NCBI GenBank assembly: GCA_030949385.1
Contig: JAUZSP010000005.1
Coordinates: forward strand, 1-64,000
DNA length: 64,000 bases
Reading direction: 5' to 3'
From: Gammaproteobacteria bacterium
Lineage (GTDB): Bacteria > Pseudomonadota > Gammaproteobacteria > JAUZRS01
A program made the translations under genes and the position numbers. Positions 5,380 through 55,525 of the stretch are shown piece after piece (position 1 is the first letter of the stretch; every line of letters starts with the position of its first letter). The notes under the pieces are model-generated. The model made no database searches, was not told the DNA's origin, and saw nothing but the letters and a program-made list of their open reading frames with translations.

Positions 5380-5518
5380 CTCAGTGTGACGTTGCCTTGC
5401 CTTAAAAATTAGGCCGCAATCTCAACGTTATTCCAAAGTCCAAACCCTTGCCATTCCCTCACCGTTAGCATCTAATAACAGTACGGTTGCAATTCACAAA
5501 AAAAACCAAGGTAAGCGC

Positions 5519-6682: not shown

Positions 6683-6697
6683 TTTAAGAGAGAAAGC

Positions 6698-9188: not shown

Positions 9189-9302
9189 AGCAATAGGCCG
9201 CAATCTCAACGTTATTCCAAAGTCCAAACCCTTGCCATTCCCTCACCGTTAGCATCTAATAACCACACGGTTGCAATTCACAGAAAAAACCAAGGTAAAC
9301 GC

Positions 9303-10466: not shown

Positions 10467-10481
10467 TTTAAGAGAGAGAGC

Positions 10482-37361: not shown

Positions 37362-40300
37362 TCAATCAAAGCCATTATCTGTCACCCGATGCTCCCCAAA
37401 ACGCTGCTTGAGAATCGTGCCGTTGGCGTTGTACTCATGACACGCACCACTGCAATCTCGTAACTCACTCACCGAGTACTTGGTGTTTGGCGTTTTTTGA
37501 TGCTCGCTGGCATCGTAATCATTCGCATGACAGGCCGCACAATCAGGTTGATACGCTGGAAAACGCCACGGAATCTGCTCGCTGTTACTGATGTGACAAT
37601 CTCGACACGCCAACCCGCCACGATGATCCCCAGGATAACTGGAAGTGGTGTGGCGGAAGGTCAAGCGAGATGACCAGCGTGTGGTGGTATGGCAACTGTC
37701 GCACTGCGCCGTGGTGACAAAATGACGACTGCCCTGCCCCGTGGCTGTCACGCCGTTGTGACAGGTTGAACAACGCCCCGCTGCGTTTTCATGGTTAAAG
37801 CCGCTGGTCTGCCAACTGCCTGGGCTGTGGCAGGTGTCGCACTGGGCGTTGGTGGGCAGATGATTGTTCGGTTTGCCGGTGGCATTTGTGCCGTTGTGAC
37901 AGGTTGAACACGTACCGCTGACGTTGCTGTGATCAAAACGACCACTGCCCCAACCGCCACTGGGCGAATGACAGGTTTCACAACCGGCATTGGTAATAAT
38001 ATGATCTGCCGGTTTACCCTCAGCCACGGTACCGTTATGGCAATTAGCACAACTGCCCGTCACCTCATTATGATCCACTCGCGTCACCGGACTCCAGTTG
38101 CCTGGGGTATGGCACGCCTCACAACGATTGCTGCTGCTGATGTGTGAACGGCTTTTACCCGAAGTGGAAACGCCGTTATGACAACTGGAACAATTGTTGG
38201 TCACAGTGCTGTGATCGAAAGTACCCGTATCCCAACCGCCCGGTTTATGACAGGTTTCACAATCGTTACCGGCGGTAATGTGATTGGCCGACTTGCCCAT
38301 CGCAATCACCCCATTATGGCAACTGAAACAGTTGCCCAACACGTCGTTATGATTGACCCGCGTCACGGGTGTCCAACGACCAGGGGTGTGGCATGACTCA
38401 CAATTGTTACTGGTACTGGCATGAGCCTGATGTTTGCCTTGCGCATTAACCCCGTTGTGACAACTGAAACAATTGCCTGTGATGTTGGAGTGATCGACGC
38501 TGCCCGACGACCAACTGTCGGTCGTGTGGCAATCGCCGCAGTTGTTGCTACTGGCAATGTGGTTGGCTTTTTTGCCTTTCGCAATCACACCGTTATGGCA
38601 CGTGGAGCAAGAACCGTTAATTTGGCTGTGATCCACTTTCGATACATTATCCCAACTGCCTGGCACATGGCAGGCTTCACAGACGTTGCTGCTGGCAATA
38701 TGGCGGCTGTTTTTGCCCTCTGCCTGCGTACCGTTGTGGCAACTGCTGCAATTGCTGCTGACCGTGCTGTGATCAAACTGCCCCGCCGACCAATCGACGG
38801 TGTTATGGCAGGTCTGGCAGTCATTACCTGAGGTGATGTGGTTGGCTTTTTTGCCCATCGCAATGGTGCCGTTGTGGCAGGTAAAACAGCTGCCCATCAC
38901 CGCAGCGTGATCCACTCGACTCACCTGCCCCCAACCGCTGGGGGTATGACAGCTCTCGCAACTGTTGCGACTGCTGATGTGATCCACCGATTTTCCGGTG
39001 GCGGTCACTCCGTTGTGGCAACTGGCGCAGTTGTCCACCACACCGCTGTGATTGAAGTTGGCCGTCGCCCAACTGCTGGGCGTATGGCAACTGTCACAGG
39101 CCTGATTGGTGACCAAATGGCTCCGTGTCTTGCCGCGCGCCGTGGTGCCGTTATGGCAACTGGCACAACTGCCCTGCACCTCGTTGTGATCGACGGTTTT
39201 GGCCGGTGACCAGATGCCTGCGGTATGGCAACTCTCACAGCGGTTGCTGCTGCTGATGTGACTGCGAGATTTTCCAGTGGCCTTATTGCCGTCGTGACAA
39301 CTGACACAACTGCCGCTGACGTTGGCGTGATTGAAGCTGGTGGAAGACCAATTCACCGGCGTATGACAGCTTTCACAATCGTTGCCGGTGGTGATGTGCG
39401 AGGCCGATTTACCCGTCGCCGTGCTGCCGTTATGGCAACTGGCACAGCTGCCAATTACCTCGTTGTGATCCACGCCACTGACCGGCGCCCATTGCGCTCC
39501 CGCTCGATGGCAACTCTCACAACGGCTGCTTGTATTAATGTGTTTTGTCGATTTACCACTGGCGTTGCTGCCGTTGTGACAACTGGTGCAGTTGCTGGTG
39601 ACGTTGTTGTGATTAAAGCTGCCCGAAGACCAACCGCTGGTGCTGTGGCAACTCTCACAATCGTTGCCACTGGTGATGTGTTGGGCGCTTTTTCCCGTTG
39701 CCTGAACGCCGTTATGACAGCTGGCACACGAGCCTCTTAAACCACGGTGATCAAAGGTGGTGCTCCAACTGCCGGTGTTGTGGCAACTCTCACAATCACT
39801 GCCACTGACAATATGTCGCGCCGATTTGCCATTGGCAATGCTGCCGTTATGACAACTGACACAAGAACCGGCAATCTGGGCGTGATCCATGGTGCGAATC
39901 GGCACCCAACCCACAGGCGTGTGGCACGATTCACAGCTGTTGCTGCTGCGCACATGACTGCTCGATTTACCGCTGGCGCGAGCACCGTTGTGGCAACTGG
40001 CACAGCTACCACTGATGCCAACGTGGTTAAAATTCGACAGCTTCCAGCTACTGGTACTATGACAAGTTTCACAATTATCACTGCTGACAATGTGATTGGA
40101 GCGCTTTCCTACGGCGGTGAAAGAGTTGTGGCACTGCACACAATCACCCACAACATCCGCATGGGTAAAGTTGGCCGCCCAACCGCTGGTGCTGTGGCAG
40201 CTCTCACAATTATTGCTGCTGGGAATGTGTAAGGAGCGTTTTCCGGTGGCCACAGTGCCGTTATGGCAGCTGGCACAGCTGCCTTTAACGTTGTCGTGAT

Positions 40301-40835
40301 CAACCTTGCCGCGCACCCGCCAAGAGAGGGAGTTATGGCAGGATTCACAGTTTTCACTGCTGTTGATGTGTTGTTTTGACTTACCCGTCGCCTTCACATT
40401 GTTATGGCAACTGGAACAGGCCTCAGTAACGTTTTTATGGTTAAAGCGCACATCGGACATACGGGTGGTGGTGTGGCACTCTTCACAACTCGCATCCGTA
40501 TCAATGTGGCGTGAATGTTTGCCCACGGCCAAAATACCGTTGTGACAACCCGCACATTGGGTTGGCGTACCTTTAAAGACCCCGCGCACATGACAGGTTT
40601 CGCAATCCACTGTCAGATGGGTTCCGCTAAGAGGAAAACTGGTGTTCCAGTGATCAAATTTCTCTTTGACTGCACCCTGCACCACCGCAGGAGAGAGCCA
40701 TAAAAACAGCAGCAATAAGCTGCTAAACAGACCCGCACTTGCACGCACTCGATGATCTTGTTTCCACATAAAACCACGCTCCCAGCGACGGATCATCCTT
40801 ATCCTGAGTTGTTCCCAATTCAATTTATTTTCCAC
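37362..40835 (-). CDS. Giant multiheme c-type cytochrome (about 46 heme motifs)
   Basis: An exported 1157-residue protein with a membrane-targeting segment near residues 33-55 (SAGLFSSLLLLFLWLSPAVV). By hand count it has 45 CxxCH motifs plus one CSGACH (CX3CH) close to the end, about one heme per 25 residues. Most of it is a ~48-residue tandem repeat: CxxCHNGxxATGKSxxHI, then CExCHxxxxWxxxxFDHxxVxGS. Each repeat has two heme sites and two further histidines, as expected for bis-histidine ligation. The pattern resembles doubled-CXXCH cytochromes. It likely acts as a long periplasmic or extracellular electron wire. Its partner is not adjacent; the heme-lipoprotein operon begins 3.4 kb away. Confidence 0.93.
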   Translation of the reverse strand: MENKLNWEQLRIRMIRRWERGFMWKQDHRVRASAGLFSSLLLLFLWLSPAVVQGAVKEKFDHWNTSFPLSGTHLTVDCETCHVRGVFKGTPTQCAGCHNGILAVGKHSRHIDTDASCEECHTTTRMSDVRFNHKNVTEACSSCHNNVKATGKSKQHINSSENCESCHNSLSWRVRGKVDHDNVKGSCASCHNGTVATGKRSLHIPSSNNCESCHSTSGWAANFTHADVVGDCVQCHNSFTAVGKRSNHIVSSDNCETCHSTSSWKLSNFNHVGISGSCASCHNGARASGKSSSHVRSSNSCESCHTPVGWVPIRTMDHAQIAGSCVSCHNGSIANGKSARHIVSGSDCESCHNTGSWSTTFDHRGLRGSCASCHNGVQATGKSAQHITSGNDCESCHSTSGWSSGSFNHNNVTSNCTSCHNGSNASGKSTKHINTSSRCESCHRAGAQWAPVSGVDHNEVIGSCASCHNGSTATGKSASHITTGNDCESCHTPVNWSSTSFNHANVSGSCVSCHDGNKATGKSRSHISSSNRCESCHTAGIWSPAKTVDHNEVQGSCASCHNGTTARGKTRSHLVTNQACDSCHTPSSWATANFNHSGVVDNCASCHNGVTATGKSVDHISSRNSCESCHTPSGWGQVSRVDHAAVMGSCFTCHNGTIAMGKKANHITSGNDCQTCHNTVDWSAGQFDHSTVSSNCSSCHNGTQAEGKNSRHIASSNVCEACHVPGSWDNVSKVDHSQINGSCSTCHNGVIAKGKKANHIASSNNCGDCHTTDSWSSGSVDHSNITGNCFSCHNGVNAQGKHQAHASTSNNCESCHTPGRWTPVTRVNHNDVLGNCFSCHNGVIAMGKSANHITAGNDCETCHKPGGWDTGTFDHSTVTNNCSSCHNGVSTSGKSRSHISSSNRCEACHTPGNWSPVTRVDHNEVTGSCANCHNGTVAEGKPADHIITNAGCETCHSPSGGWGSGRFDHSNVSGTCSTCHNGTNATGKPNNHLPTNAQCDTCHSPGSWQTSGFNHENAAGRCSTCHNGVTATGQGSRHFVTTAQCDSCHTTTRWSSRLTFRHTTSSYPGDHRGGLACRDCHISNSEQIPWRFPAYQPDCAACHANDYDASEHQKTPNTKYSVSELRDCSGACHEYNANGTILKQRFGEHRVTDNGFD
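37760..40350 (-). repeat. Tandem coding repeat of the multiheme cytochrome
   Basis: About twenty imperfect units of roughly 145-150 bp, each encoding two CxxCH motifs. Units differ mainly at the four residues after the second heme motif (for example TPVGW, STSGW, TPGSW). Such arrays evolve by unequal recombination and may also be misassembled; boundaries are approximate. Confidence 0.85.
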
Positions 40836-42021: not shown

Positions 42022-43857
42022 ATGAAGCGCCGACACTCACGATTACTGCTGATTTTACTGCCCCTGCTGCTGCTTATTAACACCAGTCAGGCCGAACAGA
42101 AAGTCACGAATAGAATCGTCGGCGGCACCCCCTCCGTAGCAGGAGCCTACCCTTGGATGGTGAGCTTACAGGATAATTTTGGCCACTTCTGCGGCGGTTC
42201 ACTGATCGCAGATCGTTGGGTACTCACCGCTGCACACTGCACATTCGATAACAATAACACCCCCCTTCCAGCAAGCCAATTGCACGTCGCCATTGGCATT
42301 AACACGCTCGACTCTGTCACCCCAAACCAACTTATCACCGTAAAAACCATCCACATACACCCCGATTACACCCACAATAGCGGCAGCGACAGTGACATCG
42401 CTTTATTAGAACTGTCACAAACAAGCAATCAAACACCAACGCTCACCGCCACACCGTCTTTAATGAACCAAATCGCCGTTGCCAGCCCCTTAAGAGTCAT
42501 GGGCTGGGGAGTACTGCAAGAAAATGGGCGAGCCTCAAATACATTGCAAGAAGTCGATCTGCCCTTGGTCAGCCAAAACAGTTGCAATCAATCTTACGGC
42601 GGTGGCATCACCGACAACATGCTCTGCGCCGGTTTTGCTGCGGGTGGCAAAGACAGTTGCCAAGGTGACAGCGGCGGCCCGCTGTTGTATCAAAACAACG
42701 GTGTCTGGCATCAAGTAGGGGTGGTCAGTTTTGGCAATGGCTGTGCTCAAGCTGGATTCCCTGGTGTTTACACCCGCGTCGCCAATTACGAATCTTGGAT
42801 AAAAGAGTTTGTCCAAGGCGTGCAACTGGAAGGCAGCACCGCCTTTGGCGTTATTCCACAACAAAGTTCCCCCGCCAGCAGCAGCCTTACCCTCAGAAAC
42901 AACAGCAACGACAGCCAACAGATACAGAGCATCGGCCTCGATAATACCAGCGTGTTCAGCATCAGTCAGGATCTCTGTAGCGGTATCACCCTAGCCTCCG
43001 CTCAGAGCTGCACCCTCGCCTTAAATATGGACACCACAGCAGCAGGGAGACACACCGCCCAGCTCAGCATCAGCCTAAGCAACCTACTGCCTCCCATCAG
43101 CCGCCAGCTAAGCGGCACCATTGCTACCCCGATCAACTTCAATCCAGCCATTGATAATCTGGGATTAAATTGGTACCAAGCAGACGATACTCCATGGAAA
43201 AACGACAGCAGCGGCTTAAATGGCAACGCAGCTCTACGCAGCGGTACCATCAGCGATCAGCAAAGCAGCACCGTTGTCACCCAAATCAGCGGCCAAACTT
43301 CTTTCTCTTTTAACTGGAAAGTTTCATCAGAAAGAAGCTACGACCAACTGAGCTTGTATATTGATAATATTTTGATGGAAAGCATCAGCGGCACTCAGAG
43401 CTGGGCCAGTAAAAGTTATCCTCTTGATCTAAGTGAGCATATTATTGTATGGCGCTATACAAAAGATGCATCCATCTCGACCGGCGAAGATGCTGGCTGG
43501 ATCAATCAGGTGAGCAACCAAGTTATCAGCCAATCCCCGCCCGTACTTAGTTTAATCGGTGCCAACCCGATGAACTTAAACCTCGGTGATCGTTATTTTG
43601 AACACGGTGCCAGCGCCATTGACAATGAAGACGGCGATCTCAGTAACAAAATTATAATCAGTGGCAGTGTCAACACCCAACAAACTGGAACCTACCTACT
43701 CACCTACCGTGTTAACGATTCTGCCGGCAATCAAGTCAGCCTACAACGTCGTGTGATTGTCACCAATAACAGTACAGCCATTGATGGCAGCGGTCTGCTC
43801 ACTTGGCCCATATTGCTGTTCGGCTTTATTGGCCTATTTCTTTTAAAACGGCATTAA
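42022..43857 (+). CDS. Trypsin-like serine protease with GlyGly-CTERM-like C-terminal anchor
   Basis: Secreted chymotrypsin-fold protease of 611 residues with a signal peptide and then the zymogen cleavage site RIVGG (31-35). The catalytic triad is His72 in LTAAHC, Asp125 in DIALLE and Ser217 in GDSGGP. Asp211 before the Ser (KDSCQGDSGG) predicts trypsin-like specificity. The following ~330 residues are beta-rich, with an Ig-like DGDLSNKI...GTYLLTYRVNDSAGN module. The end GSGLLTWPILLFGFIGLFLL plus KRH is a GlyGly-CTERM-type tail, processed by rhombosortase in other bacteria. Confidence 0.88.
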   Translation: MKRRHSRLLLILLPLLLLINTSQAEQKVTNRIVGGTPSVAGAYPWMVSLQDNFGHFCGGSLIADRWVLTAAHCTFDNNNTPLPASQLHVAIGINTLDSVTPNQLITVKTIHIHPDYTHNSGSDSDIALLELSQTSNQTPTLTATPSLMNQIAVASPLRVMGWGVLQENGRASNTLQEVDLPLVSQNSCNQSYGGGITDNMLCAGFAAGGKDSCQGDSGGPLLYQNNGVWHQVGVVSFGNGCAQAGFPGVYTRVANYESWIKEFVQGVQLEGSTAFGVIPQQSSPASSSLTLRNNSNDSQQIQSIGLDNTSVFSISQDLCSGITLASAQSCTLALNMDTTAAGRHTAQLSISLSNLLPPISRQLSGTIATPINFNPAIDNLGLNWYQADDTPWKNDSSGLNGNAALRSGTISDQQSSTVVTQISGQTSFSFNWKVSSERSYDQLSLYIDNILMESISGTQSWASKSYPLDLSEHIIVWRYTKDASISTGEDAGWINQVSNQVISQSPPVLSLIGANPMNLNLGDRYFEHGASAIDNEDGDLSNKIIISGSVNTQQTGTYLLTYRVNDSAGNQVSLQRRVIVTNNSTAIDGSGLLTWPILLFGFIGLFLLKRH

Positions 43858-43866
43858 GAAACAACC

Positions 43867-44223
43867 TCAGGGGAGAGTCACCAAAGCGTACTCCCCTGAT
43901 GCATTCACACCCATCCCCATCTCGCAGCTGCCCATCTGTTTAAGCACAACCAATTGCTGCAAAAATTGCAACCGAATGGCGCAATTTTTCTTGGTATTTT
44001 TATACTGCCCCTGTTCACCATCAAGGGTAAAGTTAGCCTCCAAATCCCCAGTGCGCCCCCTTTCTGAAACCGTCAACAATGAAAATGACCAGATACCCTC
44101 AGAAAATCGAATCTCCAAGTCACTGCTTTCATTACCATATATTCCCGTTTTATCACAATGATCCGCATACGCGATGGCAATAAACCCCATCGAAAACAAC
44201 ACCAAAGCCCATTTTTTAATCAC
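43867..44223 (-). CDS. Exported protein of unknown function
   Basis: The 118-residue protein has a signal peptide (LVLFSMGFIAIAYA) and four cysteines in the mature part (DHCDKTG, KKNCAIR, GSCEMG). This suggests periplasmic disulfides. No family was recognised. It is convergent with the protease gene and follows the TPR operon on the same strand (2 bp after the last gene). Confidence 0.55.
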   Translation of the reverse strand: MIKKWALVLFSMGFIAIAYADHCDKTGIYGNESSDLEIRFSEGIWSFSLLTVSERGRTGDLEANFTLDGEQGQYKNTKKNCAIRLQFLQQLVVLKQMGSCEMGMGVNASGEYALVTLP

Positions 44224-44225
44224 AC

Positions 44226-44480
44226 TTACCTCCCACCCAAACCATAAAAATTCAGCTCTCGTTGAAACAGTTCACGCTCCAAGGGCAACAGTTCTTGATC
44301 TAAAACGCGGCCAAAATTCACCTCAGAGAGTTCACTCGGTTTGGCTGCTTTCCACGGTAAAAGATAGGTTACGGTGGGCAGTTCTTTATTGCCAATAATG
44401 GTGCTTTGCAGCTCGATGCGCTGTTCTGCCCAACTCAGCGGCGCAAACAAACACAATAGAATTAAGCCGATTTTCTGCAT
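44226..44480 (-). CDS. Small exported protein at the end of the TPR/heme-lipoprotein operon
   Basis: An 84-residue protein from the ATG at 44480 with AGGAAATA upstream. The signal peptide is IGLILLCLFAPLSWA, then a short mature part EQRIELQSTIIGNKELPTV with PLERELFQRELNFYG. No family was recognised. Its ATG overlaps the stop of the preceding TPR gene, so it belongs to the same transcript. Confidence 0.6.
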   Translation of the reverse strand: MQKIGLILLCLFAPLSWAEQRIELQSTIIGNKELPTVTYLLPWKAAKPSELSEVNFGRVLDQELLPLERELFQRELNFYGLGGR

Positions 44481-45037
44481 TATTTCCTCCGCTCCAAATC
44501 CAGAATCCAACCTGCTACCTGTTTGTCTTTAGCGCCACTTTGCTGTTGAAATTGTTTATACGCTTGCAAAGCGCAAACGGGACGATTCAGATAAAGATCG
44601 CATAAAACACCCAAATTCAATCGCGCCAAAGCGTATTTTGGTGCTATCTCAAGGGCTTTTTCATAGGCCAATTTTGCGGCCTCAAAATCCCCCCTGCGGC
44701 GCAGTAACAGCCCCTGTTGATTCAACCCCGCCACATGCTTGCCGTCCAGCGCCAATAACGTCTCCACGGCCACCATCGCCGCTGAGTCTTTACCTAAATG
44801 AGTCTGGACAATGGCCAAATTTAGATACGCCCCTGGCAATGTTTTATCCACTGAAACAACGCGTTTAAACAGACGCTCTGCGGCGCGATACTCTTTGGCT
44901 CGCATCCTCGCCAAACCCTGCTGAAACGGTATTTCCACCGCACTGGGAACCGACTTTTTTTGCTCTGAAGAGAAGTTAGGCATAGCAGCACACGCCGTAA
45001 TAAAAAGTGGCAGCAACAGATTAATAAGCACTTTCAT
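44480..45037 (-). CDS. TPR lipoprotein
   Basis: The 185-residue lipoprotein has lipobox FITAC (Cys16). Three to four TPR units follow (for example PGAYLNLAIVQTHLGKDS and AKLAYEKALEIAPKYALARL). TPR lipoproteins usually serve as scaffolds at the outer membrane. It overlaps the large TPR lipoprotein gene by 17 bp and is followed by the small exported protein. Confidence 0.75.
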   Translation of the reverse strand: MKVLINLLLPLFITACAAMPNFSSEQKKSVPSAVEIPFQQGLARMRAKEYRAAERLFKRVVSVDKTLPGAYLNLAIVQTHLGKDSAAMVAVETLLALDGKHVAGLNQQGLLLRRRGDFEAAKLAYEKALEIAPKYALARLNLGVLCDLYLNRPVCALQAYKQFQQQSGAKDKQVAGWILDLERRK

Positions 45038-47831
45038 ACGCCGCCTCCATACGCTCTTGTTTGTTGTAACGCACTGGCAACAACAACGCTAATTTTTTTA
45101 TGCTCTGCTGCACCCAATGATCATAAATGCCCTTGGCAATTCGCCCCTGATTCAATTCGTGCAATTCAATCGCCTGCTCTTCAAAGGGAATCGCTCGCTC
45201 TTCCAATAAAATACCGTACTGCTCCAATGCCTCAGTATCCAAACCTCGTGGCCGTTGGGAGTTCATTAATGCTTGGCTAAAGTCAGTGTAGAGATCACCC
45301 AGTTGATAAGTCGCTTGCGTCGTCACCTGCGCCACGCCCAAGCTGGCAATGGAATCCAGTGCCTTAACCGCCTTTTGCATGGCTGATTTTTTCTTTTTCA
45401 AGTTTGTTTGCAACGGCTCACGCAACCGCACACGGCGATAATCTGCCAACAAAGGCTGTGCTAATTTAATCTGCGCCTGCGCCAACAAAAACAACATTCG
45501 CTCACTGCGCGCACGGCGAGGTGCGCTGCGATAACTCTCTTCAATCTGCCGCAACCAATAGCGCCTTTTTTTACTGTTACGCACGTTTTTATACAGGCTC
45601 GAAAGACGAAATTGCGCTTCCATTTTCAACTCAATGGGCGCAGGAAAACGATAGACATAAAATTTATTGATCTCGATCGCTGCTGCTGTTTTACCGCTGC
45701 GTAAATACAATTTAGCCGCTTGCATCGCCGCTTCTCTGGCCACAACCTCACTGCTGCTTTTTGAACGCGCCAAGGTTTCATACGTAGCGGCGGCTTTATC
45801 AAATTGTGACGATTTCAGATAGACAAAAGCCAGTTTTTGGCTCACCTCATCGGCCAATGTATGTCGAGGATAATTTCTCTGAAACGCCTGCAAACGCGCC
45901 GCCGCCTTGCGCCACTGCTGCAATGCCAACAACTCCGTAGCCGCATCGTAAACCGAAATCGCCTGTAATGTTTTATTCGGCGCGTGCAGTGCCGCACGAC
46001 TAAACAACTCATAAGCCGTTTGATGCTGTTTTTCCGCTCGATACTCCAGCGCCAAATTATGCTCAGCCACGGTTAATCTTTTTTGCACCTCCAGACGCTG
46101 CCGCCGCTGTTTTCTGTTTTTAGCGTGTAAGTGTTGCAGCGCCTGTTCATACGCCAAAGCGGCATCAGAAAAATAACCTTGTTTAAAATTCACATCGGCC
46201 AACAGCGTCCAGATCACTTGCCGCTGCTGTTGATTCAGATTTTTCTGCCATAAAAGCCACTGCGCCAGTTGCCATGCCTGACCCCACTCCCCACGCTGAA
46301 AACGCTGCTCGGCGGCCTGCAACAGCACCGCCACTCCCTGCGGATGCTGTGGATAACAGTACACCAAACGCTCTGAGTTTATTAATACCTGAGTTTGCCA
46401 AAACGCTCGCTGCGATTTTTTTGCGCGCCGCTGCAGACGCTGATAGGTGGTGATGGTTTTATAGGCCGCCTCCAACGCCTCGGGATGCAGACCATATTCA
46501 TAGGCACTCTGCTCATACGCCCGTGCTGCTTCACGATCACGACCCAAGACCACCAACACCTCCGCTTTACCAAACGAGGCGGTGGCACTGCTGGAAGAGT
46601 GCGGGAAAAAATTTAACGTGGTTTGATACCAACCCAACGCGTGCCGATAATCTCGTTTCTGTCTTGTTTTACGCCGCTGTTTTTGTCCCCGCGCATGATA
46701 ATAACGCGCCAGATCATTCAAGTGTTCTTGCAACGCCTGTTGAATTTCAGGCCACGCCTCAAGCTGATGTTGTTGCCAAAAAGGCGCATCCAAACCGTAA
46801 CGACGAATGTAATCGGTTTTGGCTTGAATCACCTGTCGATTGAAACCCGAACGCTGATAAATTTCGATCAGACGACTGTGAAACAACGGCGCTTGAACAC
46901 TCAAAGGGCGACGATCAATAAAGGCTTGATAACTGGCCGCCGCATCGGAAAAACGCTCTTTTTTACGATAAAACAGCGCCAAACGAGTGTAAAACAGCGC
47001 CTCATAACGCGCCCCTTTTGGCATCTTTTTTAAAACAGCGTCAGCAAACTGAGTTAACACCAACACCCCACCTTGAGCAGAAAACCCCAAACTCATGACG
47101 CGCAGCAGATCATCAATCTGCTCTTGATCGGCACGGGAGAGCTGTTTAATCTGTTTCTGAGGAAATTCAGCAGCGCCCAATTGCTGTTGCAACAAAGTCA
47201 TAAAATGATTACGACTGGCACTGTATTTTTGCTGTTTAAATTGACTCCAACCCAACATAAACAGAGCTTGACGATAAAAAACACCGCCGTCTCCTTGAGC
47301 CAAAACCGCTTGATAGGCTTTTTCTGCCAATGCATATTGACCCGCACTGAACCACAGTTGAGCCAAACGAAACTGACTTTCAACAAACAACTCAGACTGT
47401 GGATAATCAGCCAGCAAACGCTGCAAAGTAATGATAACTTGATCCGGCTGAGCTAAATAATCATAAGCCCGAGCCAGTTGATACAACACCTGATCAGTGC
47501 GGATAAAGTTAGAATGCTGGTTTAAAATACGTTGATAAAGCTGCGCCGCCTCACGCAACGCACGTTTGTCACCATCAGCATCGCTACCCTCATCCAGCCG
47601 CAGATCAGCCAAGCGCCGCAAAATTTCCGGGCGAGCGCTGGGGTTTTTTGATTCCGCTAACAGCTGGCGATAACTCGCAACGGCCAACTGCCGTGGCGCA
47701 GCAGACACGCTTACTGTTTTTTCTGGCTTGGGCAACGCCTGAGTGCTTGGCAAACTGGCCAAGGTTGCCGGACGCTGAGATGCACAGGAGAGCAAAAAAA
47801 ACAGCGTCAGGCCAAGCAAAAAAGACCTCAT
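45021..47831 (-). CDS. Large TPR-repeat lipoprotein
   Basis: The 936-residue lipoprotein has lipobox FLLSC (Cys16) and then TPR-like helices over almost its whole length. Examples are LYQRILNQHSNFIRTDQVLYQLA, truncated here, and FRLAQLWFSAGQYALAEKAY. The arrangement recalls large TPR proteins of envelope machines such as the AglT/GltE group of gliding-motility systems, but that link is only by architecture. It overlaps the genes on both sides (4 bp upstream, 17 bp downstream). Confidence 0.75.
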   Translation of the reverse strand: MRSFLLGLTLFFLLSCASQRPATLASLPSTQALPKPEKTVSVSAAPRQLAVASYRQLLAESKNPSARPEILRRLADLRLDEGSDADGDKRALREAAQLYQRILNQHSNFIRTDQVLYQLARAYDYLAQPDQVIITLQRLLADYPQSELFVESQFRLAQLWFSAGQYALAEKAYQAVLAQGDGGVFYRQALFMLGWSQFKQQKYSASRNHFMTLLQQQLGAAEFPQKQIKQLSRADQEQIDDLLRVMSLGFSAQGGVLVLTQFADAVLKKMPKGARYEALFYTRLALFYRKKERFSDAAASYQAFIDRRPLSVQAPLFHSRLIEIYQRSGFNRQVIQAKTDYIRRYGLDAPFWQQHQLEAWPEIQQALQEHLNDLARYYHARGQKQRRKTRQKRDYRHALGWYQTTLNFFPHSSSSATASFGKAEVLVVLGRDREAARAYEQSAYEYGLHPEALEAAYKTITTYQRLQRRAKKSQRAFWQTQVLINSERLVYCYPQHPQGVAVLLQAAEQRFQRGEWGQAWQLAQWLLWQKNLNQQQRQVIWTLLADVNFKQGYFSDAALAYEQALQHLHAKNRKQRRQRLEVQKRLTVAEHNLALEYRAEKQHQTAYELFSRAALHAPNKTLQAISVYDAATELLALQQWRKAAARLQAFQRNYPRHTLADEVSQKLAFVYLKSSQFDKAAATYETLARSKSSSEVVAREAAMQAAKLYLRSGKTAAAIEINKFYVYRFPAPIELKMEAQFRLSSLYKNVRNSKKRRYWLRQIEESYRSAPRRARSERMLFLLAQAQIKLAQPLLADYRRVRLREPLQTNLKKKKSAMQKAVKALDSIASLGVAQVTTQATYQLGDLYTDFSQALMNSQRPRGLDTEALEQYGILLEERAIPFEEQAIELHELNQGRIAKGIYDHWVQQSIKKLALLLPVRYNKQERMEAAYESAY

Positions 47832-48085
47832 GGCAAACTCTCACCCTTAACCCGCTCAAGACTCTCCGCTCGCGCCAATTTGGACTGCTGGATCAAACGC
47901 TGCAATCGCACCGCCTGTTTTTGCAGTTGCCGAGCCACCAACTGTTTTAAATGACTGCGCCACTTTGGTAAAAGACGCTGCAAACGATTTGAGATGCCAG
48001 ACAAACGCCGTTGTAACCGTCGCAAAGACCGATCATCAGCAGGTTTTACCGTGAACTTTTTAATGCGATGATTTTTTGCCGCCAC
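47828..48085 (-). CDS. Small basic coiled-coil protein, hypothetical
   Basis: An 85-residue, very Arg/Lys/Gln-rich protein (RRLQRRLSGISNRLQRLLPKW) predicted as a long amphipathic helix or coiled coil. No signal peptide is seen. Its start overlaps the preceding TPR gene by 40 bp, which is more than its neighbours, so the true start may be later. The stop overlaps the next gene by 4 bp, which supports it as a real operon member. Confidence 0.5.
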   Translation of the reverse strand: MAAKNHRIKKFTVKPADDRSLRRLQRRLSGISNRLQRLLPKWRSHLKQLVARQLQKQAVRLQRLIQQSKLARAESLERVKGESLP

Positions 48086-49224
48086 TGTTGAAGGTTATCT
48101 TCCAACTGACTTAATTCACGATAATCCCACAACGACTCTTGCAGGTCGTGACTGGCCAGCAATTGCGGCAATCCGTAATGACCTTGAGTCTCAGCCAATA
48201 CGCTTAAATCCAACAACCATTCATCGTCACGCAATAACAGACGTGTCTGCTCTAACTGCTCAGAACTCTGGTGCAGATGAGCCACAGCCTGCTGATAATA
48301 CTCTGCCGCTCGCGCCGGTTTTTGCCACTGCATCAACAACTCTGGAATCGCCAACCAGACCTCTTGCACCGCCAGATCATCAGCGGAACGCTCAGACAAC
48401 TGCAACCACGGGCTAAGCGCCGCCGCATAACGATTTTGATGCAACCGGCTCCAACCCAACGCCAACAATGCACGGCTGCTGTGCAGACCCTTCAAGGAGA
48501 CCTTAAGCAGTGCCGTCTCCGCCGCTGCGGGGCGTTTTTCTCGCAACGCAAACAAGCCCAACGTTAAATTGGTTCGATCTTGCAGTGCCACCTGTTCGCT
48601 GTTCTGCACCGACAAATCAGCCAAACTCTGCAACTGCTGCAACGCCTGTTGTTTATCCAGAGAAACAGCGATCATGGCGCGATTATAAACCGCGTACCTT
48701 GCGTACAACTCTGGCCAATGGGCATTCAAGGTCTGCAAGGCTTTTTCACGCTGGCCAGTTTGGCTCTGAATCTGCGCCAATAAAAGACGGCCTTTGGCTT
48801 GCCATTCGCTGCTTATTTTTTCTGAATCAGAGAAAAATTTTATCTGTTGTAAAGCCGCCTCTGCCGCCACGCGATAACCGCGTCGATAACTCATTTCAGC
48901 CAACAGATACCAAGCACGATTACGCACTGCGCGTGGCTCTCCTTGTAACAGACGCTGAAAAATAGGCTGGGCTTTTTTATGCAAACCGTAAGCGAGATAC
49001 AACCCCGCCAATAACAGCTCCGCTTCGGTTTCATGATGAGAGAGTTGGCGCTGACGTTTAGCTGCCAGCAGTTTTACAATGGCGCTAAAATAATCCTGCT
49101 GATAGAAGTGGTAAAGCACTTCGCCGTAATGTGGGTCAAGCAGAGGCTTTAAATCTGTTTCCATCTCCGCCCGTGCAGAGAGAGAAAATAGAAAAGAAAG
49201 GAAAAAAATCGCAACCCTCACCAT
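48046..49224 (-). CDS. Periplasmic TPR protein
   Basis: The 392-residue protein has a signal peptide (VAIFFLSFLFSLSARA, cut before EME). TPR-type helical pairs follow (YGEVLYHFYQQDYFSAIVKL and others). It is likely a periplasmic scaffold. It overlaps the neighbouring genes by 7 bp upstream and 40 bp downstream within the same operon. Confidence 0.72.
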   Translation of the reverse strand: MVRVAIFFLSFLFSLSARAEMETDLKPLLDPHYGEVLYHFYQQDYFSAIVKLLAAKRQRQLSHHETEAELLLAGLYLAYGLHKKAQPIFQRLLQGEPRAVRNRAWYLLAEMSYRRGYRVAAEAALQQIKFFSDSEKISSEWQAKGRLLLAQIQSQTGQREKALQTLNAHWPELYARYAVYNRAMIAVSLDKQQALQQLQSLADLSVQNSEQVALQDRTNLTLGLFALREKRPAAAETALLKVSLKGLHSSRALLALGWSRLHQNRYAAALSPWLQLSERSADDLAVQEVWLAIPELLMQWQKPARAAEYYQQAVAHLHQSSEQLEQTRLLLRDDEWLLDLSVLAETQGHYGLPQLLASHDLQESLWDYRELSQLEDNLQQWRQKIIALKSSR

Positions 49225-49733
49225 TGGCTGATGACAAATTCCGGTTGCTGTTTTAGCTCTTTATCGCGGATTAAGACCTTAACAAACTGTGATTTTTCTA
49301 ATTTATGCAGTTTAAATGCTGCCGCCCGTTGATAGACTCGGTTATTAGGCCCAAGACCATAAAATATCACCCTTAATTCATACTCACCCGCCGCCAAATT
49401 AGCCGTGTAAAGCCGATGTACACCGCCCTTTTTAAGCGCCTCACGCTCCGACAAGCTGTAATCTGACGTTGTTACTGCCACTCCGTCTATTTTCAGCTGC
49501 AAGGAGTGCAGTTGAAAAAAAAAGCCAATATCCAGCGCCACAAACACCGTCACCCTCTGCTGCTGAGGGTAACGCAGCGCCTCGTCCAACTGCAGCAGCT
49601 CTTGGTTAAGCTGCAACACCTGCCATTTTAACGCCCGTGTTCGACTCTCCAGCTCTTTAAAACTCGGTTCTGCCAGTAAAGGAGCGGTGAGTAAAAAACT
49701 CAGTAGCAAAGCAAAACCTATTTGCCTCTTCAT
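49218..49733 (-). CDS. Exported protein with coiled coil and beta-sandwich-like domain
   Basis: The 171-residue protein has a signal peptide (IGFALLLSFLLTAPLLA), a short coiled coil (LESRTRALKWQVLQLNQEL) and then a beta-rich domain. HSLQLKIDGVAVTTSDY and ANLAAGEYELRVIFYGLG resemble PEGA or carbohydrate-binding-like folds. The function is unknown. It lies between the DUF3570-like barrel and a TPR gene. Confidence 0.6.
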   Translation of the reverse strand: MKRQIGFALLLSFLLTAPLLAEPSFKELESRTRALKWQVLQLNQELLQLDEALRYPQQQRVTVFVALDIGFFFQLHSLQLKIDGVAVTTSDYSLSEREALKKGGVHRLYTANLAAGEYELRVIFYGLGPNNRVYQRAAAFKLHKLEKSQFVKVLIRDKELKQQPEFVISQW

Positions 49734-49752
49734 ACCTCGTTAACTCAACCGC

Positions 49753-50817
49753 TCAATACCAAACGGAGAGATAAAGCTGCAAACTGTTAGCACCAAAACG
49801 GTAGGCATTGCCATCAAGATCGCTGTAATCGTCATAATCAAACTCCATCAACTCATAAGCCAGATTAAATGAGCCTTTATCCAACCCCCATTGACGCGGT
49901 GATGCCAAATCAAAACTGACTTTAGCCCCGAGGGTGTTGCTCTGATAACGGCTCAGCACTTTATCGCTGGCCATAAAATTAAAATTCTGCTCAAAACTGT
50001 CCTGATAAAAATTGGCTTGATCTTGAGCGTAATAACGATAGTAGAGATCCAATAACCAGTCACGCCGAAATTTTCTGCTAAAACCCAGCTCGACACTCTG
50101 TGCCGCCACCTGCCACGTATCCGCACGATAACGGTAATCAATCCGCCCGCTGCGACCTTCAGACCACGCTTTTTTAGCCCCAAAGGCAAAGATATTACTG
50201 CTGCGCGTCTCAGGATACAGCTCTACACCGCTGTTAATGCCTTGCAAACGACGATAAGGGTTGTTCAAATAACCGCTGTCATTGAGCGACTCGTAATCAA
50301 AACTCAAACGCAGATCATTGGTTAGCAACTGCGCCACCCCAACCTTATAATTAAAGTGCTCCGCTGACGCTTCAAAAGCCGAATCACTTAAATCCAAGAC
50401 CTGATCCACCCCACGAGAAAAAGCCAAACTGACGGTGCGATCACCCGCCAAAGCATGTGAAACCCGCAGAGAGAAACGATTACTCTGGTAATCAGACTCT
50501 TCACTACGGCTGTAGGTCAAACTCATCAATGAGTTGGCAAACTGATAGTCAACCGCAAAATCCGTTGCATCGCGCTGCTCTTGGCTCGGGCTGGCCGTCG
50601 CAAGCAGATCCTCGGGTAGACCACGAATCGACTCGCGTTGATAGGCAAAAGAGAGCGCATAACGCTCCGCAAAATGCTTACGCAGCAGCAGACTGGGCGC
50701 ATTCACCTCCACCCCATCACCTTGATAATAACGGTAGCTTAGATCCGAACGCTCTTCTGGTAACTCAGCCAATACCGCACAGCTTGCCAACAACAACACG
50801 CCTGTCCAGCGGCTCAT
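49753..50817 (-). CDS. Outer-membrane beta-barrel protein (DUF3570-like)
   Basis: About 354 residues from the ATG at 50817. The signal peptide is WTGVLLLASCAVLA, then ELPEERSDLSYRYYQGDGV and LLLRKHFAERYALSF, a pattern known from DUF3570 barrels. Many alternating aromatic strands follow, and the C-terminus LQLYLSVWY ends in an aromatic residue, as outer-membrane barrels require. The LASC in the signal could be read as a lipobox, but the barrel pattern argues against that. An upstream TTG would add 19 residues. Confidence 0.68.
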   Translation of the reverse strand: MSRWTGVLLLASCAVLAELPEERSDLSYRYYQGDGVEVNAPSLLLRKHFAERYALSFAYQRESIRGLPEDLLATASPSQEQRDATDFAVDYQFANSLMSLTYSRSEESDYQSNRFSLRVSHALAGDRTVSLAFSRGVDQVLDLSDSAFEASAEHFNYKVGVAQLLTNDLRLSFDYESLNDSGYLNNPYRRLQGINSGVELYPETRSSNIFAFGAKKAWSEGRSGRIDYRYRADTWQVAAQSVELGFSRKFRRDWLLDLYYRYYAQDQANFYQDSFEQNFNFMASDKVLSRYQSNTLGAKVSFDLASPRQWGLDKGSFNLAYELMEFDYDDYSDLDGNAYRFGANSLQLYLSVWY

Positions 50818-50878
50818 CCTTGAAACCCTATTGTCTGTTTTGCAGCCTCTCATGACACGTCTCACATTAATCAATTAA

Positions 50879-51550
50879 TTAAAAATAGAAGCTGGCTCCA
50901 ACGCTCACTTCCAAATTATGGGTTAAGGTTTTAACCCCAAGTAAATCACTCTCAAACAGTTGGTCTCTGACATCCACACGCAGATTGAGGCGCTCCAGCG
51001 GCACGACTCGATAACCAAAACCCAAGCCGTAGCTGAAATGATCCTGCTCAATAAAGCGCACATTGCCCACCCCAGCGAGCAGGTAAAACGCGCTGTTCCA
51101 AGCACGGTTTTTACCTAAAAAAGCCTCACCAGGAAATAAATTATAGCCCAGTGCCAACTGATAAAAATCCAACGGCTCCTCTTCTTGCGGGAAAATCACC
51201 AAACCCAGTTGACGATACGCACTGTCTTGCAGTTGAGAAACACCATAACTTGCATCAAGAAAAAAATCTTCGCTGACATAAAACGCCAAACGCACCCCAT
51301 ACAGAGGCTGTGTAGAAAAATGTTCTATGCTGATCGCCCCACCAAACACCCCCAATTCAAAATCCAACGCATCAATATTGGCCTCGACAACTTTAGGCCG
51401 CAATAACTGCGGTTCAATAACCACCTCGCGCTCCTGCAACGGCTCGGCCATTAGGGATGTGGACAGCAGAAAAAATCCAGCTCCGGCAACGCCCAATATT
51501 ATTCTGTTAAAAAAAGGCTGAAACACCCAATAACCACTCCGTATGTTCAT
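50879..51550 (-). CDS. Outer-membrane beta-barrel domain protein
   Basis: About 223 residues with a signal peptide (IILGVAGAGFFLLSTSLMA, cut before EPL). Paired beta-strands follow, ending VSVGASFYF with a terminal Phe. The pattern ELGVFGGAISIEHFST, then YGVRLAFYVSEDFFLDASYG, resembles small eight-stranded barrels of the type found in envelope-machine clusters (OMP_myx-like). The start is uncertain between 51550 and 51565. The 5' end overlaps the SH3-barrel gene by about 44 bp. Confidence 0.66.
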   Translation of the reverse strand: MNIRSGYWVFQPFFNRIILGVAGAGFFLLSTSLMAEPLQEREVVIEPQLLRPKVVEANIDALDFELGVFGGAISIEHFSTQPLYGVRLAFYVSEDFFLDASYGVSQLQDSAYRQLGLVIFPQEEEPLDFYQLALGYNLFPGEAFLGKNRAWNSAFYLLAGVGNVRFIEQDHFSYGLGFGYRVVPLERLNLRVDVRDQLFESDLLGVKTLTHNLEVSVGASFYF

Positions 51551-52238
51551 CTGCTTGATTGTCATCCACCAGCAGCAGGTAATCTTTGAGATCCAAACGC
51601 AACAGGAAACGACGAGTAATATAGCGTCTCAGCCCGATACCGGCAGTGATGGCAGTCGCATCCACGTTACGCGCATCCACCAAGGTCGCACGGGGACGAT
51701 TTTCAAACCGCCCCAGCCCCAAACTAAAATAGGGTGCCCACGTCAGTGACGGCATCGGACGCGAAACCAAAGCCAGTTGATACATATTCGAGCTAGAAAA
51801 AATCCCGCTCACATTCGACACCCCCACCTCCAGCAGCAAATTGGGGTTAAAACGATAACCGCCGCGCAGCATCGACACCGCATCCCCAGAAAATAGACCT
51901 CCGGCAAAACCCAGCTCCCACCGTCTGGCCAAATAATCCGCTTTGGCCACAGGGCGCAATTGCAAACTGGAACGATCTCGAAAGCGCAACTGCTCCAGTT
52001 GCGCCTGACTGATCCAACCCTCTTTGCCCTGAGCACGCACCTTAAACCAACTGGTTTTACGCCGCAGCAAACGCAGGCTCTGACCCTGCTCTACGGCATA
52101 AAAACGCGGATAAGCCTCTCCTGGCCCCGTACGCAGCTCCAAAAACGGCTGCACCACCCAGAGTGTCAGCGATTCAGCCTGCGCACCCGTGGCCAGCAAA
52201 AACAGCAATAACAACCTAAAAAGACGGCTAAAAACCAC
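51507..52238 (-). CDS. SH3-domain protein with C-terminal beta-barrel
   Basis: The 243-residue protein has a signal peptide (LFRLLLLFLLATGAQA). A bacterial SH3 domain follows at about 25-85 (LELRTGPGEAYPRFYAVEQG, then KVRAQGKEGWISQAQL). The second half is a small barrel like that of the next gene (WELGFAGGLFSGDAV..., ending LLGVSAFF). The SH3 part may bind peptidoglycan or a partner. It overlaps the heme-lipoprotein gene by 11 bp. Confidence 0.7.
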   Translation of the reverse strand: MVFSRLFRLLLLFLLATGAQAESLTLWVVQPFLELRTGPGEAYPRFYAVEQGQSLRLLRRKTSWFKVRAQGKEGWISQAQLEQLRFRDRSSLQLRPVAKADYLARRWELGFAGGLFSGDAVSMLRGGYRFNPNLLLEVGVSNVSGIFSSSNMYQLALVSRPMPSLTWAPYFSLGLGRFENRPRATLVDARNVDATAITAGIGLRRYITRRFLLRLDLKDYLLLVDDNQADEHTEWLLGVSAFF

Positions 52239-52737
52239 AGCGACTCAGCTCCACCGGCTGGCATTGACCGCAACGGGGGCTGTCCTGCTGCTCAACTCGA
52301 GTGGTGATCCAACTCAAAACCGCTTGATAACAGAGGTCGTTTTTGTTCGGGAAAATATCCCCACCCGTATGCGTACCACTGATGGCTGAAATGCCCTGCA
52401 ACGGCTCCAGCAACAGCTTGCTGTTCACCGGCTGATCCAAATTAGCAAACGCTTGAGCTGCCACAAAATTACTCTCCATCTGCGTTGAAACCGCTGCTGG
52501 GCTGACAAACACTTTAAAACCACCGCCTGAACCACTGGCAGGATTATGACAGCCGCTGGCAGAACAGCTCAGGCCGTTGTTATTAATATCCGTATGCAAA
52601 ATCGGATCAACACAGAGCTGATAATCGCTGCGACAGAGCGCCCGCCCCTGCTCTTGCAGTGGTTCAACAGTCACCTCTTGGCAACCAACCAACATCAACA
52701 AAACGGAGAGTAACAAAGATTTCTTATGGACAACCAT
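52228..52737 (-). CDS. Lipoprotein with a CX4CH heme-binding motif
   Basis: The 169-residue lipoprotein has lipobox MLVGC (Cys19) and contains CSASGCHNP, a CX4CH heme motif, plus other cysteine pairs (ALCRSDYQLC, RCGQCQP). It resembles small cytochrome-like lipoproteins next to HzsA-related genes. The heme motif is unusual, and binding needs proof. It overlaps the downstream SH3 gene by 11 bp and the upstream three-heme lipoprotein gene by 14 bp. Confidence 0.68.
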   Translation of the reverse strand: MVVHKKSLLLSVLLMLVGCQEVTVEPLQEQGRALCRSDYQLCVDPILHTDINNNGLSCSASGCHNPASGSGGGFKVFVSPAAVSTQMESNFVAAQAFANLDQPVNSKLLLEPLQGISAISGTHTGGDIFPNKNDLCYQAVLSWITTRVEQQDSPRCGQCQPVELSRCGF

Positions 52738-55525
52738 TGGCTGCTCCTGCCGCCCCGATCCACGCCGAAATCGTCAAATAATCCAGCTCCGTCGGTGACA
52801 ACACCGCCGCCCCGTTCACCGACAAATGGGGGGGACGATCCGTTTCAATGTTCAGCGCTCGTTTTAACAAGGCACTCTCCGCTGGCTGACAAACATCACT
52901 GATCATAGCCAGAGTCACATTAAAATCTCCCAAAAGATTGCCTGTGAGGACAAAATTACGCCCAACAAACGTACTGTTGGCCGCACCCAAGTCCGGCACA
53001 CCTCCCACACTGCTGCCAAAGGGCTGATGGCAATTGGCACAGCGGTTGATCAAAATCGGCTGCACCTCTTGCTCAAATAGACGTTCATCCAACCCCACCA
53101 CCGCTTGCACCAGCTCGGCCAAATCACGCCGACCGTTGCCATTGGCATCGGCTCCATAAGGATCATTACGGTACTGCGCACCGAGATCAATCCATTCTGC
53201 CAACAGGCGTTTTTCACTGCCATTGAGCATATTGCGATGATCAACGCTCATCACCGGCAACGCGGCGGTGGCCAACAGCTCCTGCTCGTTGAGTTTCTCC
53301 ATCAAGGCGCTGGAGCGCGAGGTTCCCCGTGAATTACCCACACTGACCAGCGGCGTTTGACGCAACAAAACCACCTCACCGTCATCAATTTGCACCACGG
53401 GCAAACCGGCACTGTCCAGCTGCGGTTTACCGATCAACAACGATTCATAAGAGGTGGAACGTCCCAGCGCACTGAGGCCATCGCTGAGATCCAGATCCGC
53501 CACTAAATCCGTGCCGTTATGGCAACGCACACAGGTTTCCACACCCGCCACACCTCGGCTCACACTCCAAAGAGACTGAATGTGTTCGGCGTAATTAATC
53601 ATGCCGTTTTGCGGTGCAGCCGTCGTTAAACCACGGTAATCAAGCAGCAGTTCGGTATCAATAACCCGCAGCGCCGGATCGGTCCAGAGATCAATAAAAT
53701 GCGGATCGCTGCCCAGATTCAACGCCGTCGGATCAAGACGAGTACGGGTCTCGGCCATCGACTCACCGTTTTCCGCCAACAGCAGCGTATTGGGGTGATT
53801 GCCGCTAATGGGAGCGGTGTTAAGCGCACTGCCGCGCCGTGGCGAATGACAACCGTTGCAGGTGCGCGTTTCGCCCGGACGGGCTTGAATCCAATTGGTG
53901 TGCATCTGCAACGCTCGGCCTTCGGCATCCACCACCGACAGTGCCAGCGGGGTGTCGGCAGGCACTTTCAGCTTGAAGGAACCGTCCGGTTCGATGGCGG
54001 CGTACCCCAAAATCTGCTGCATCTCAAAACGCGATGCCCCGATAAACTCCCGCGAGATCCCCGGCGGCGTGGGCAGCGCACGACTGACGCGCAGAAACCG
54101 CGCCGGTCGTTGTGCGGCGCGGGTTTGCAGCGGGTCTTTCAGTTTTGCCAGATCGGCTTTGCCGTTCAGCATCGGCAACGATTCGCTGGCCAGCAGAACA
54201 CTCTCTCCCATCAAATCCGATTGATCGGTGTCGTAGACACTTTTGACATTGAGAATGGCCTCACCTGCTGCCGCCAGCGCGGCGTTCAGCGGTTTGTCCG
54301 GCACCACAAAAGGCCGCTCACGAGGCATGATCGCAATGGGATCGGTTAATACCCAGCCCTCAGCGGCCAAGGCGATGGGGCGCTGGGTTTTTGTGTGCAG
54401 ATCAAACATATAAATGCCATAACGGGGCAGCCCTTCAACCACCTCGCTCACCCCACTGAACGGGTTGGCCTGCTGCACCGGTTGATAAGGGCTCCAACTG
54501 AGCAGCACGCGGTTGCTGCCATCCCAGAGCGGATAAGGGGTGGTGTAACGGCCTTTGTCTGAAATCTCTCGTCCTAGCGGCAGTTCAAACAAAGTCGCCT
54601 GCTGCTGTCCCGTACCCGTGACACCCTCAAACGCCGCTTGATCAATGTCGGTAAAGTTATCTTTGTCGATGATCAGCAAGGCTCCTCCTTCGTGCGTCCC
54701 CAATAAGGGCATCACCGAAGTGATGATCCGACCGTCTTGCATCTCACGGGGGTGCAGATAGCTGTTACCTGGACTAAACGCCCCATAAAGCACAAACAGG
54801 TTGGTGCCATCAGGATTACTGAAAAAGAGCGGGAAGTGATTTTTATCCCCCACATGATCCCAACGGGCAAAGAGCAGTTCGCCACTTTTGAGCACAGTCG
54901 GGTTGCGGTCGTGACTCTGATTAAAGGAGATCTGCTGCACGTTGCTGCCATCGGCGTTTATGGTGTGCAAGACAATGCTCGCCTCACGTTCGTATTCATC
55001 TCGGCTGGCAAACGGCTCCATGCCCTCGGCCTGCATCAGTTGACGGCTCTTTTGCTGCCGATCCGATGAAAAAACAATCCGACCGTCTGGCAGGTAGGCC
55101 GGGTCAACATCGTTACCTGCATTGGCCAGCGCATCGTCGCTGATCAGTCGCGTAAGGCGCTTATCGACAATGCTGTATTGCCACATGTTCCAACTGCTGT
55201 CCTGCGGCCCTTTCATGGAGAAGATCACTTTACTGGCATCGTAAGAGACCTCTGGATCAGAGACATCGCCCTGACCTTGAGTGTGGCCACGGGTGAGGTT
55301 AATCGGCTCCACACTGGGCGAGGCCAAATCCTTCCAAAATAAGTCACCACCCGCCGCCCAACGAATGCCGTCCACAGGGCTGCCCATGGTGCTGGCGTGA
55401 CGTTGCACATAAACAATGGGGAAATTACCCTCCACCACCACCGCGTTTTCCGGCTGCGAACAGCCGCTCAACAGCAGTGACAGCAACAACAACCAAACAA
55501 CGTAACCTGCTCTAAAGGTGATCAT
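52724..55525 (-). CDS. HzsA-like three-heme lipoprotein with beta-propeller
   Basis: The 933-residue lipoprotein has lipobox LLLSGC (Cys22). A WD40/TolB-like propeller covers about 35-400 (DPEVSYDASKVIFSM, YLPDGRIVFSSDRQ). A middle domain resembles the hydrazine-synthase alpha region, and CxxCH heme motifs lie at 556-560, 665-669 and 829-833. An EF-hand-like loop DANGNGRRDLAE lies near residue 793. It is not evidence for anammox: HzsA-like proteins occur widely with unknown roles. AAGGA stands seven bases before the ATG. It is the first gene of the tight operon. Confidence 0.75.
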   Translation of the reverse strand: MITFRAGYVVWLLLLSLLLSGCSQPENAVVVEGNFPIVYVQRHASTMGSPVDGIRWAAGGDLFWKDLASPSVEPINLTRGHTQGQGDVSDPEVSYDASKVIFSMKGPQDSSWNMWQYSIVDKRLTRLISDDALANAGNDVDPAYLPDGRIVFSSDRQQKSRQLMQAEGMEPFASRDEYEREASIVLHTINADGSNVQQISFNQSHDRNPTVLKSGELLFARWDHVGDKNHFPLFFSNPDGTNLFVLYGAFSPGNSYLHPREMQDGRIITSVMPLLGTHEGGALLIIDKDNFTDIDQAAFEGVTGTGQQQATLFELPLGREISDKGRYTTPYPLWDGSNRVLLSWSPYQPVQQANPFSGVSEVVEGLPRYGIYMFDLHTKTQRPIALAAEGWVLTDPIAIMPRERPFVVPDKPLNAALAAAGEAILNVKSVYDTDQSDLMGESVLLASESLPMLNGKADLAKLKDPLQTRAAQRPARFLRVSRALPTPPGISREFIGASRFEMQQILGYAAIEPDGSFKLKVPADTPLALSVVDAEGRALQMHTNWIQARPGETRTCNGCHSPRRGSALNTAPISGNHPNTLLLAENGESMAETRTRLDPTALNLGSDPHFIDLWTDPALRVIDTELLLDYRGLTTAAPQNGMINYAEHIQSLWSVSRGVAGVETCVRCHNGTDLVADLDLSDGLSALGRSTSYESLLIGKPQLDSAGLPVVQIDDGEVVLLRQTPLVSVGNSRGTSRSSALMEKLNEQELLATAALPVMSVDHRNMLNGSEKRLLAEWIDLGAQYRNDPYGADANGNGRRDLAELVQAVVGLDERLFEQEVQPILINRCANCHQPFGSSVGGVPDLGAANSTFVGRNFVLTGNLLGDFNVTLAMISDVCQPAESALLKRALNIETDRPPHLSVNGAAVLSPTELDYLTISAWIGAAGAANGCP

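Follow-up and report, generated by a model that had tools for sequence, protein, structure and literature searches.

The window analyzed here, a 64,000-nucleotide stretch of DNA from a gammaproteobacterial genome (G000, with G056 as its congener), contains a block of genes for haem lipoproteins, outer-membrane barrels, tetratricopeptide repeat (TPR) proteins and small exported proteins, whose relation to the motor-driven Glt/Agl envelope machinery is the subject of this work. The block runs from 55525 to 43867; in the open reading frame (ORF) listing its genes are consecutive, all lie on the minus strand, and they either overlap or are separated by gaps of at most ~60 bp. A first-pass annotation of the same DNA had delineated an eleven-gene unit at 55525-44226. 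The co-directional arrangement and tight spacing hold, but the gene list does not; one listed member is the frameshifted C-terminus of its neighbor and one small gene has to be added, which leaves the count at eleven.

The member that falls away is a “small basic helical protein” of 85 residues (47828..48085), which aligns to the C-terminus of a single intact 468-residue TPR ORF in the congener (L002, L114). The adjoining gene (48046..49224) encodes the N-terminal part (392 residues) of the same TPR protein in the other frame, and the frameshift corresponds to a one-base difference between window and congener near 48058. The added gene (43867..44223) lies 2 bp downstream of the gene at 44226..44510 and encodes a second small exported protein, a genus-level addition to the unit that is 85% identical in the congener (L002/L114) and has no NCBIfam match.

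Haem lipoproteins

The first gene (52724..55525) encodes a 933-residue HzsA-like lipoprotein that matches PF18582 (E=5e-20, 72 bits) and PD40. It combines a lipobox cysteine (Cys22), a propeller-like N-terminal half, an HZS-alpha middle domain and CxxCH motifs at 556, 665 and 829, in line with the three motifs originally described. Cys22 and the first two CxxCH motifs are kept in all 17 aligned HZS sequences, while the third is confined to one seven-member subgroup that includes the window protein. The second gene (52228..52737) encodes a small lipoprotein with C-terminal cysteine pairs, and its CX4CH motif, likewise already annotated, is kept in 7/7 compared sequences. All genes in that comparison adjoin HZS genes of the three-CxxCH type; at L121, a CX4-type gene is present though no HZS gene was detected at the locus.

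The PDB match of the HzsA-like protein, over residues 497–567, is the hydrazine synthase alpha subunit (5c2v). The two are alike in the middle haem domain and weakly so in the C-terminal haem part, but the window protein differs in being a lipoprotein and in its gene context. In hydrazine synthase, a tyrosine four residues past the CxxCH motif is a haem ligand. The residue at this position is not tyrosine in the window (CNGCHSPRR, compared with CSGCHYGSY in 5c2v) nor in the relatives, and the HzsA equivalog score is 60 bits against a cut-off of 800 bits; we rejected identity with hydrazine synthase.

Further haem protein genes were seen in the neighborhood of such units. A giant multihaem cytochrome of 1157 residues, with 45 CxxCH motifs in DmsE-type decahaem repeats, is encoded at 37362-40835 (minus strand), 3 kb downstream of the unit and outside it. 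The gene is kept in the congener and was seen in this genus only, where its product perhaps serves the barrels and haem lipoproteins. In many relatives (L091:4274-9972, L094:9105-14428 and others), the HZS gene stands by a divergent trio encoding a DUF1585-like protein, a LamG-domain protein with two CxxCH motifs and an unknown protein of ~540 residues; this trio is absent from the window unit.

Outer-membrane barrels and the flavinylation set

The next two genes encode paralogous barrels. The protein at 51507..52238 had been annotated as an SH3-barrel protein, and the SH3 domain is indeed there (SH3_3/SH3_4), but that description was incomplete; the AlphaFold2 (AF2) model, with a predicted local distance difference test score (pLDDT) of 85, places the SH3 domain at residues 25–82 and eight further strands at 107–242, which form an OmpA/OprF-like barrel with OprF as best PDB match, bringing the barrels of the block to three. 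The OMP_myx_plus protein at 50879..51565 is confirmed as an outer-membrane barrel by TIGR04565 (135 bits, cutoff 60). This family matches the OMP_myx protein in full and the SH3 protein in part, indicating paralogous OmpA-like barrels encoded beside TPR protein genes. GltB and GltA of M. xanthus are likewise OmpA-like paralogous outer-membrane barrels, encoded beside the TPR protein GltC and binding it (Jakobczak 2015, PMC4488436). The two window genes have the same layout (GltB-like for the protein with the N-terminal SH3 domain, GltA-like for the other), the likeness being one of layout, fold and TIGR04565. As gltA and gltB have been reported only in Myxococcales and Bdellovibrionales (Luciano 2011, PMC3169522), our analysis suggests that barrels of the GltA/GltB type may be distributed more widely.

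The third barrel (49753..50874, likely start 50817) belongs to DUF3570, as annotated (PF12094, 94 bits, cutoff 25). Its AF2 model has 16 strands (pLDDT 84; predicted template-modelling score 0.81), so that the barrel folds foreseen in the annotation are predicted for both this protein and the SH3 protein. Long loops occur at odd-to-even turns, and the first flavinylation motif lies in the β3–β4 loop, itself modelled with low confidence. Because this loop is on an odd-to-even turn, normal porin topology would place the motif on the outer face.

A Foldseek search with the DUF3570 model returned generic outer-membrane barrels, namely FadL, OmpG, PelB, BcsC, AlgE and MtrB (6r2q_B), with modest TM-scores. 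Three of these, PelB, AlgE and the TPR-linked BcsC, are export channels, which raises the question of whether DUF3570 secretes a polysaccharide or other polymer moved by the Agl-like motor, as Nfs does with spore-coat glycan, while the haem and flavin proteins oxidize the polymer. The precedent is that Agl-Nfs moves a surface polymer (Wartel 2013, PMC3858216), and LamG-domain cytochrome genes adjoin the clusters of many relatives. However, FadL, OmpG and MtrB reach similar scores, no synthase or glycosyltransferase was recognized among the identified genes, and polymer export leaves thioredoxin and DUF4266 unexplained; we regard it as an unlikely account of the block.

DUF3570 proteins are covalently flavinylated by ApbE and are found with DUF4266 and thioredoxin-like proteins (Meheust 2021, PMC8238504); the main text of that paper mentions no barrel, TolQ-type motor or TPR proteins. 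DUF4266 was present in 23 of the 26 genomes searched, mostly just upstream of the cluster's DUF3570 gene, and in the relatives it is preceded by a thioredoxin/ResA-type gene, while many clusters have an ApbE gene within or next to them. A genome search found no DUF4266 in G000 or G056, and this genus also lacks a clustered ApbE gene (ApbE is encoded elsewhere in the genome) and thioredoxin, for which the window unit has no room. The first motif reads RGLP in the window and SGLP in the congener, compared with S-G/S-A-S. Across 22 aligned DUF3570 proteins, [ST][GSA]A[ST] is kept in 19/19 from genomes with DUF4266 and in 0/3 from genomes without it (Fisher 6e-4, with about two independent losses). 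Judged by these sequence features, DUF3570 is probably unflavinylated in the window genus, and the flavin step seems to have been lost there, leaving the barrels and haem lipoproteins. In G263, the DUF3570 gene is split into two frames, by assembly or mutation (L094:3017-4148).

The TPR core block, its motor and their distribution

The conserved core block begins with the gene of an exported coiled-coil/beta protein (COIL, 49218..49733), which stands next to the TPR genes at nearly every core locus. The annotated presence of three TPR proteins agrees with TPR family matches: the frameshifted protein in the GltC-like position, mostly 610–695 residues long outside the genus; a 936-residue lipoprotein in the GltD-like position (45021..47831), with orthologues in nearly all core loci; and a 185-residue lipoprotein in the GltE-like position (44480..45037), with a weak and non-specific match to NF033758 (GltE, 27 bits). 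The small exported protein at 44226..44510 (SMALL) is conserved in core loci and is encoded directly before AglR in relatives. Family scans gave no match for the CX4CH lipoprotein, the coil protein or the small proteins.

The Myxococcus gliding system Agl-Glt and its paralogue Nfs arose from a core complex of seven genes. This complex, which many gammaproteobacteria have and which has no known function, consists of gltC, gltD, gltE, gltG, aglR, aglQ and aglS plus one further gene (PMC3169522; PMC3858216). In loci of relatives, fetched and re-annotated, the motor quartet directly follows the TPR genes in the order COIL-TPRc-TPRd-TPRe-SMALL-AglR-AglQ-AglS-GltG. In many diverse families, the full run of ~17 kb reads HZS-(CX4)-SH3barrel-OMP-Trx-DUF4266-DUF3570-(ApbE)-COIL-TPRc-TPRd-TPRe-SMALL-AglR-AglQ-AglS-GltG. 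The outer-membrane module precedes the core in the same run in, for example, L096, L097, L098, L099, L100, L106 and L107, and lies elsewhere in the genome otherwise; when the modules are on separate contigs (L112, L117, L118, L120), the core block keeps its own order. In part of the subgroup with the CX4CH lipoprotein, GltG is followed by a PDZ (GspC-like) protein (L096:17454-18104, L106:17084-17716).

In the window genome, AglR (TolQ/ExbB), two ExbD proteins (AglQ, AglS) and a GltG tail are encoded in one operon at G000:C7:162725-165357, outside the window. The first-pass annotation had noted a resemblance to gliding-type machines together with the lack of a TolQR-like motor. The resemblance is strengthened by this quartet and by its contiguity with the TPR genes in relatives, while the lack of a motor is true within the block and not of the genome. 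Two other readings were rejected. A motor-less new class does not apply, since the genome has the motor at another site and many relatives have it contiguous with the block; and an assembly artefact does not apply, since the congener shows the same two neighborhoods (L113–L115, with the quartet at L113), so that the split is a trait of the genus. A contig scan across genomes with the large TPR protein as query returned one near relative only (L002, apparently the same contig as G056:C110). From gene order and family membership, we take the block to be a putative derivative of the gammaproteobacterial Glt/Agl core complex, split in two and equipped with a redox module at the outer membrane.

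The identity of the tail bears on what such a motor might do. The GltG of the window genome scores 26 bits against the 650 bits of the full GltG equivalog (NF033760), and a Pfam scan of one relative's GltG gave TonB_C only. This overlap with the TonB_C family, and the iron transporters of some DUF3570 clusters (PMC8238504), would fit an energized uptake of metal or of a reduced ligand, in which redox chemistry at the surface would release the substrate and a GltG/TonB-like tail would drive its import through the barrels. With no inner-membrane importer or TonB-dependent receptor recognized in the surveyed clusters, uptake has a slim chance of being correct. A gliding machine proper would account for the homologous motor and barrel families, but we found no GltI, GltJ or FHA-containing GltG, and gliding is undocumented in most bacteria that have the core complex (Luciano 2011, PMC3169522); we consider it highly improbable.

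The linkage of the two modules was surveyed in 274 genomes of the class, counting barrels above the family cut-off. The OMP_myx barrel occurs in 41 genomes and HZS_alpha in 38, and 35 genomes have the two together (hypergeometric p 1.7e-34, uncorrected for phylogeny). An OMP_myx barrel is found ≤ 4.5 kb away at 34 of 44 HZS-domain loci, and 40 of 42 OMP_myx barrel loci lie ≤ 4.5 kb from DUF3570. The annotated idea of one envelope unit combining barrels and haem lipoproteins depended on co-occurrence across genomes, which is thus borne out, as is conservation of the unit. A GltG-type tail is present in 39/41 barrel genomes, and the barrel is missing in 21/60 tail genomes; the outer-membrane module is therefore almost never without the motor. 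Among 299 genomes sampled across the phylum, the barrel was found at E ≤ 1e-20 in only seven, all of the same class, and a plasmid search with the OMP_myx barrel found none.

The near-constant presence of the motor is also what a plain extracellular electron conduit of the MtrCAB kind leaves unexplained. In such a conduit, the barrel and haem lipoproteins would pass electrons to external acceptors, and the TPR and motor neighbors would serve assembly only. The multihaem surface lipoprotein, the MtrB porin among the Foldseek matches and the 45-CxxCH cytochrome of this genus all speak for it; the conserved unit, however, has no periplasmic multihaem protein, and a plain conduit appears to us improbable.

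An Rfam scan of the window gave zero matches, and a promoter/terminator scan performed no better than on shuffled sequence. Elsewhere in the window, convergent to the unit and kept in the congener, is a gene for a secreted trypsin-like protease (42022-43857, plus strand), whose C-terminal hydrophobic segment and basic tail resemble a sorting signal. A 2.75-kb tandem duplication of 99% identity (~4819-7564 and 8601-11348) contains sucC, a PIN-domain-like gene and the greater part of sucD, whose C-terminus in the first copy is longer and divergent.

A proposed motor-redox machine and known systems

Based on these observations, we favor, with moderate confidence, the view that the block encodes the components of a proton-driven trans-envelope machine of the Glt/Nfs type that lie in the periplasm and outer membrane, including a docked redox module. 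That the redox outer-membrane module and the motor core form one machine appears, from their genomic linkage, fairly probable. In the mechanism we envisage, the inner-membrane motor would drive GltG, which would push or pull through the TPR scaffold on a platform of two OmpA-like, GltA/GltB-like barrels. The redox module docked on this platform would consist of the 16-strand DUF3570 barrel and the HzsA-like multihaem lipoprotein; in most relatives, ApbE would flavinylate DUF3570 and thioredoxin/DUF4266 would feed it. The likely job would be redox chemistry at the surface, assisted by the motor, in which electrons cross the outer membrane along a thiol–flavin–haem path that we put forward tentatively; alternatively, the motor may position, gate or move surface haem proteins.

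Several observations weigh against this proposal: (i) in several genomes the modules are on different contigs, and their adjacency is not universal; (ii) GltG is short here (315 residues), with no FHA domain seen; (iii) the TPR matches are non-specific, and the likeness to GltA–E is one of position and layout; and (iv) the strict flavinylation motif [ST]GA[ST] is found in only 6/19 relatives, being degenerate in 13/19.

The content of the block in many gammaproteobacteria, with haem and probably flavin proteins, suggests that the motor is coupled to cell-surface redox chemistry. It is possible, though doubtful, that gammaproteobacteria have a widespread class of outer-membrane redox machines powered by a proton motor. 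In these, a motor of the TolQR type would use the TPR scaffold to act on an HzsA-like haem lipoprotein and a flavinylated barrel of 16 strands, and proton flow would be coupled either to electron transfer or to the movement of redox enzymes at the cell surface. We know of no comparable case of a motor coupled to redox chemistry at the outer membrane. Since 2011, no function has been known for the core complex that stands alone in gammaproteobacteria and from which the gliding and spore-coat machines of Myxococcus descend; its close association with a haem/flavin module of the outer membrane would provide a function open to testing, as well as a defined list of genes that includes two conserved small ones. 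For the flavinylated DUF3570 family, the model predicts a 16-strand barrel in the outer membrane, with a candidate flavin site on an outer-face loop. The proposal would thereby join two problems, what the core complex does and what DUF3570 flavinylation is for.

The core complex, DUF3570 flavinylation and the OMP_myx barrels are each already known; among open-licence papers, we found none joining an HzsA-like lipoprotein, DUF3570 or flavinylation with AglR/GltG in one locus. Type IX secretion is not indicated by the PorW/SprE equivalog (NF052312, 27 against 250 bits). With the MtrCAB conduit, the system shares a barrel and a multihaem lipoprotein, but its conserved unit has a motor and TPR scaffold in place of an MtrA-like periplasmic multihaem plug. 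With the DUF3570-DUF4266-thioredoxin-ApbE clusters, the window has DUF3570 in common, while DUF4266, the thioredoxin-like protein and clustered ApbE accompany it only in relatives, and the window protein also departs from them in motif 1. The closest parallel is the Agl-Glt/Nfs machinery with its core complex, with which the system shares TolQ/ExbB and two ExbD proteins, a GltG-type tail, three TPR proteins and two OmpA-like paralogous barrels by a TPR protein. It differs from this machinery in its short GltG without a detected FHA domain and in the relocation of the motor quartet in this genus, and it adds HzsA-like haem lipoproteins and the DUF3570 barrel, accompanied in relatives by thioredoxin, DUF4266 and ApbE.

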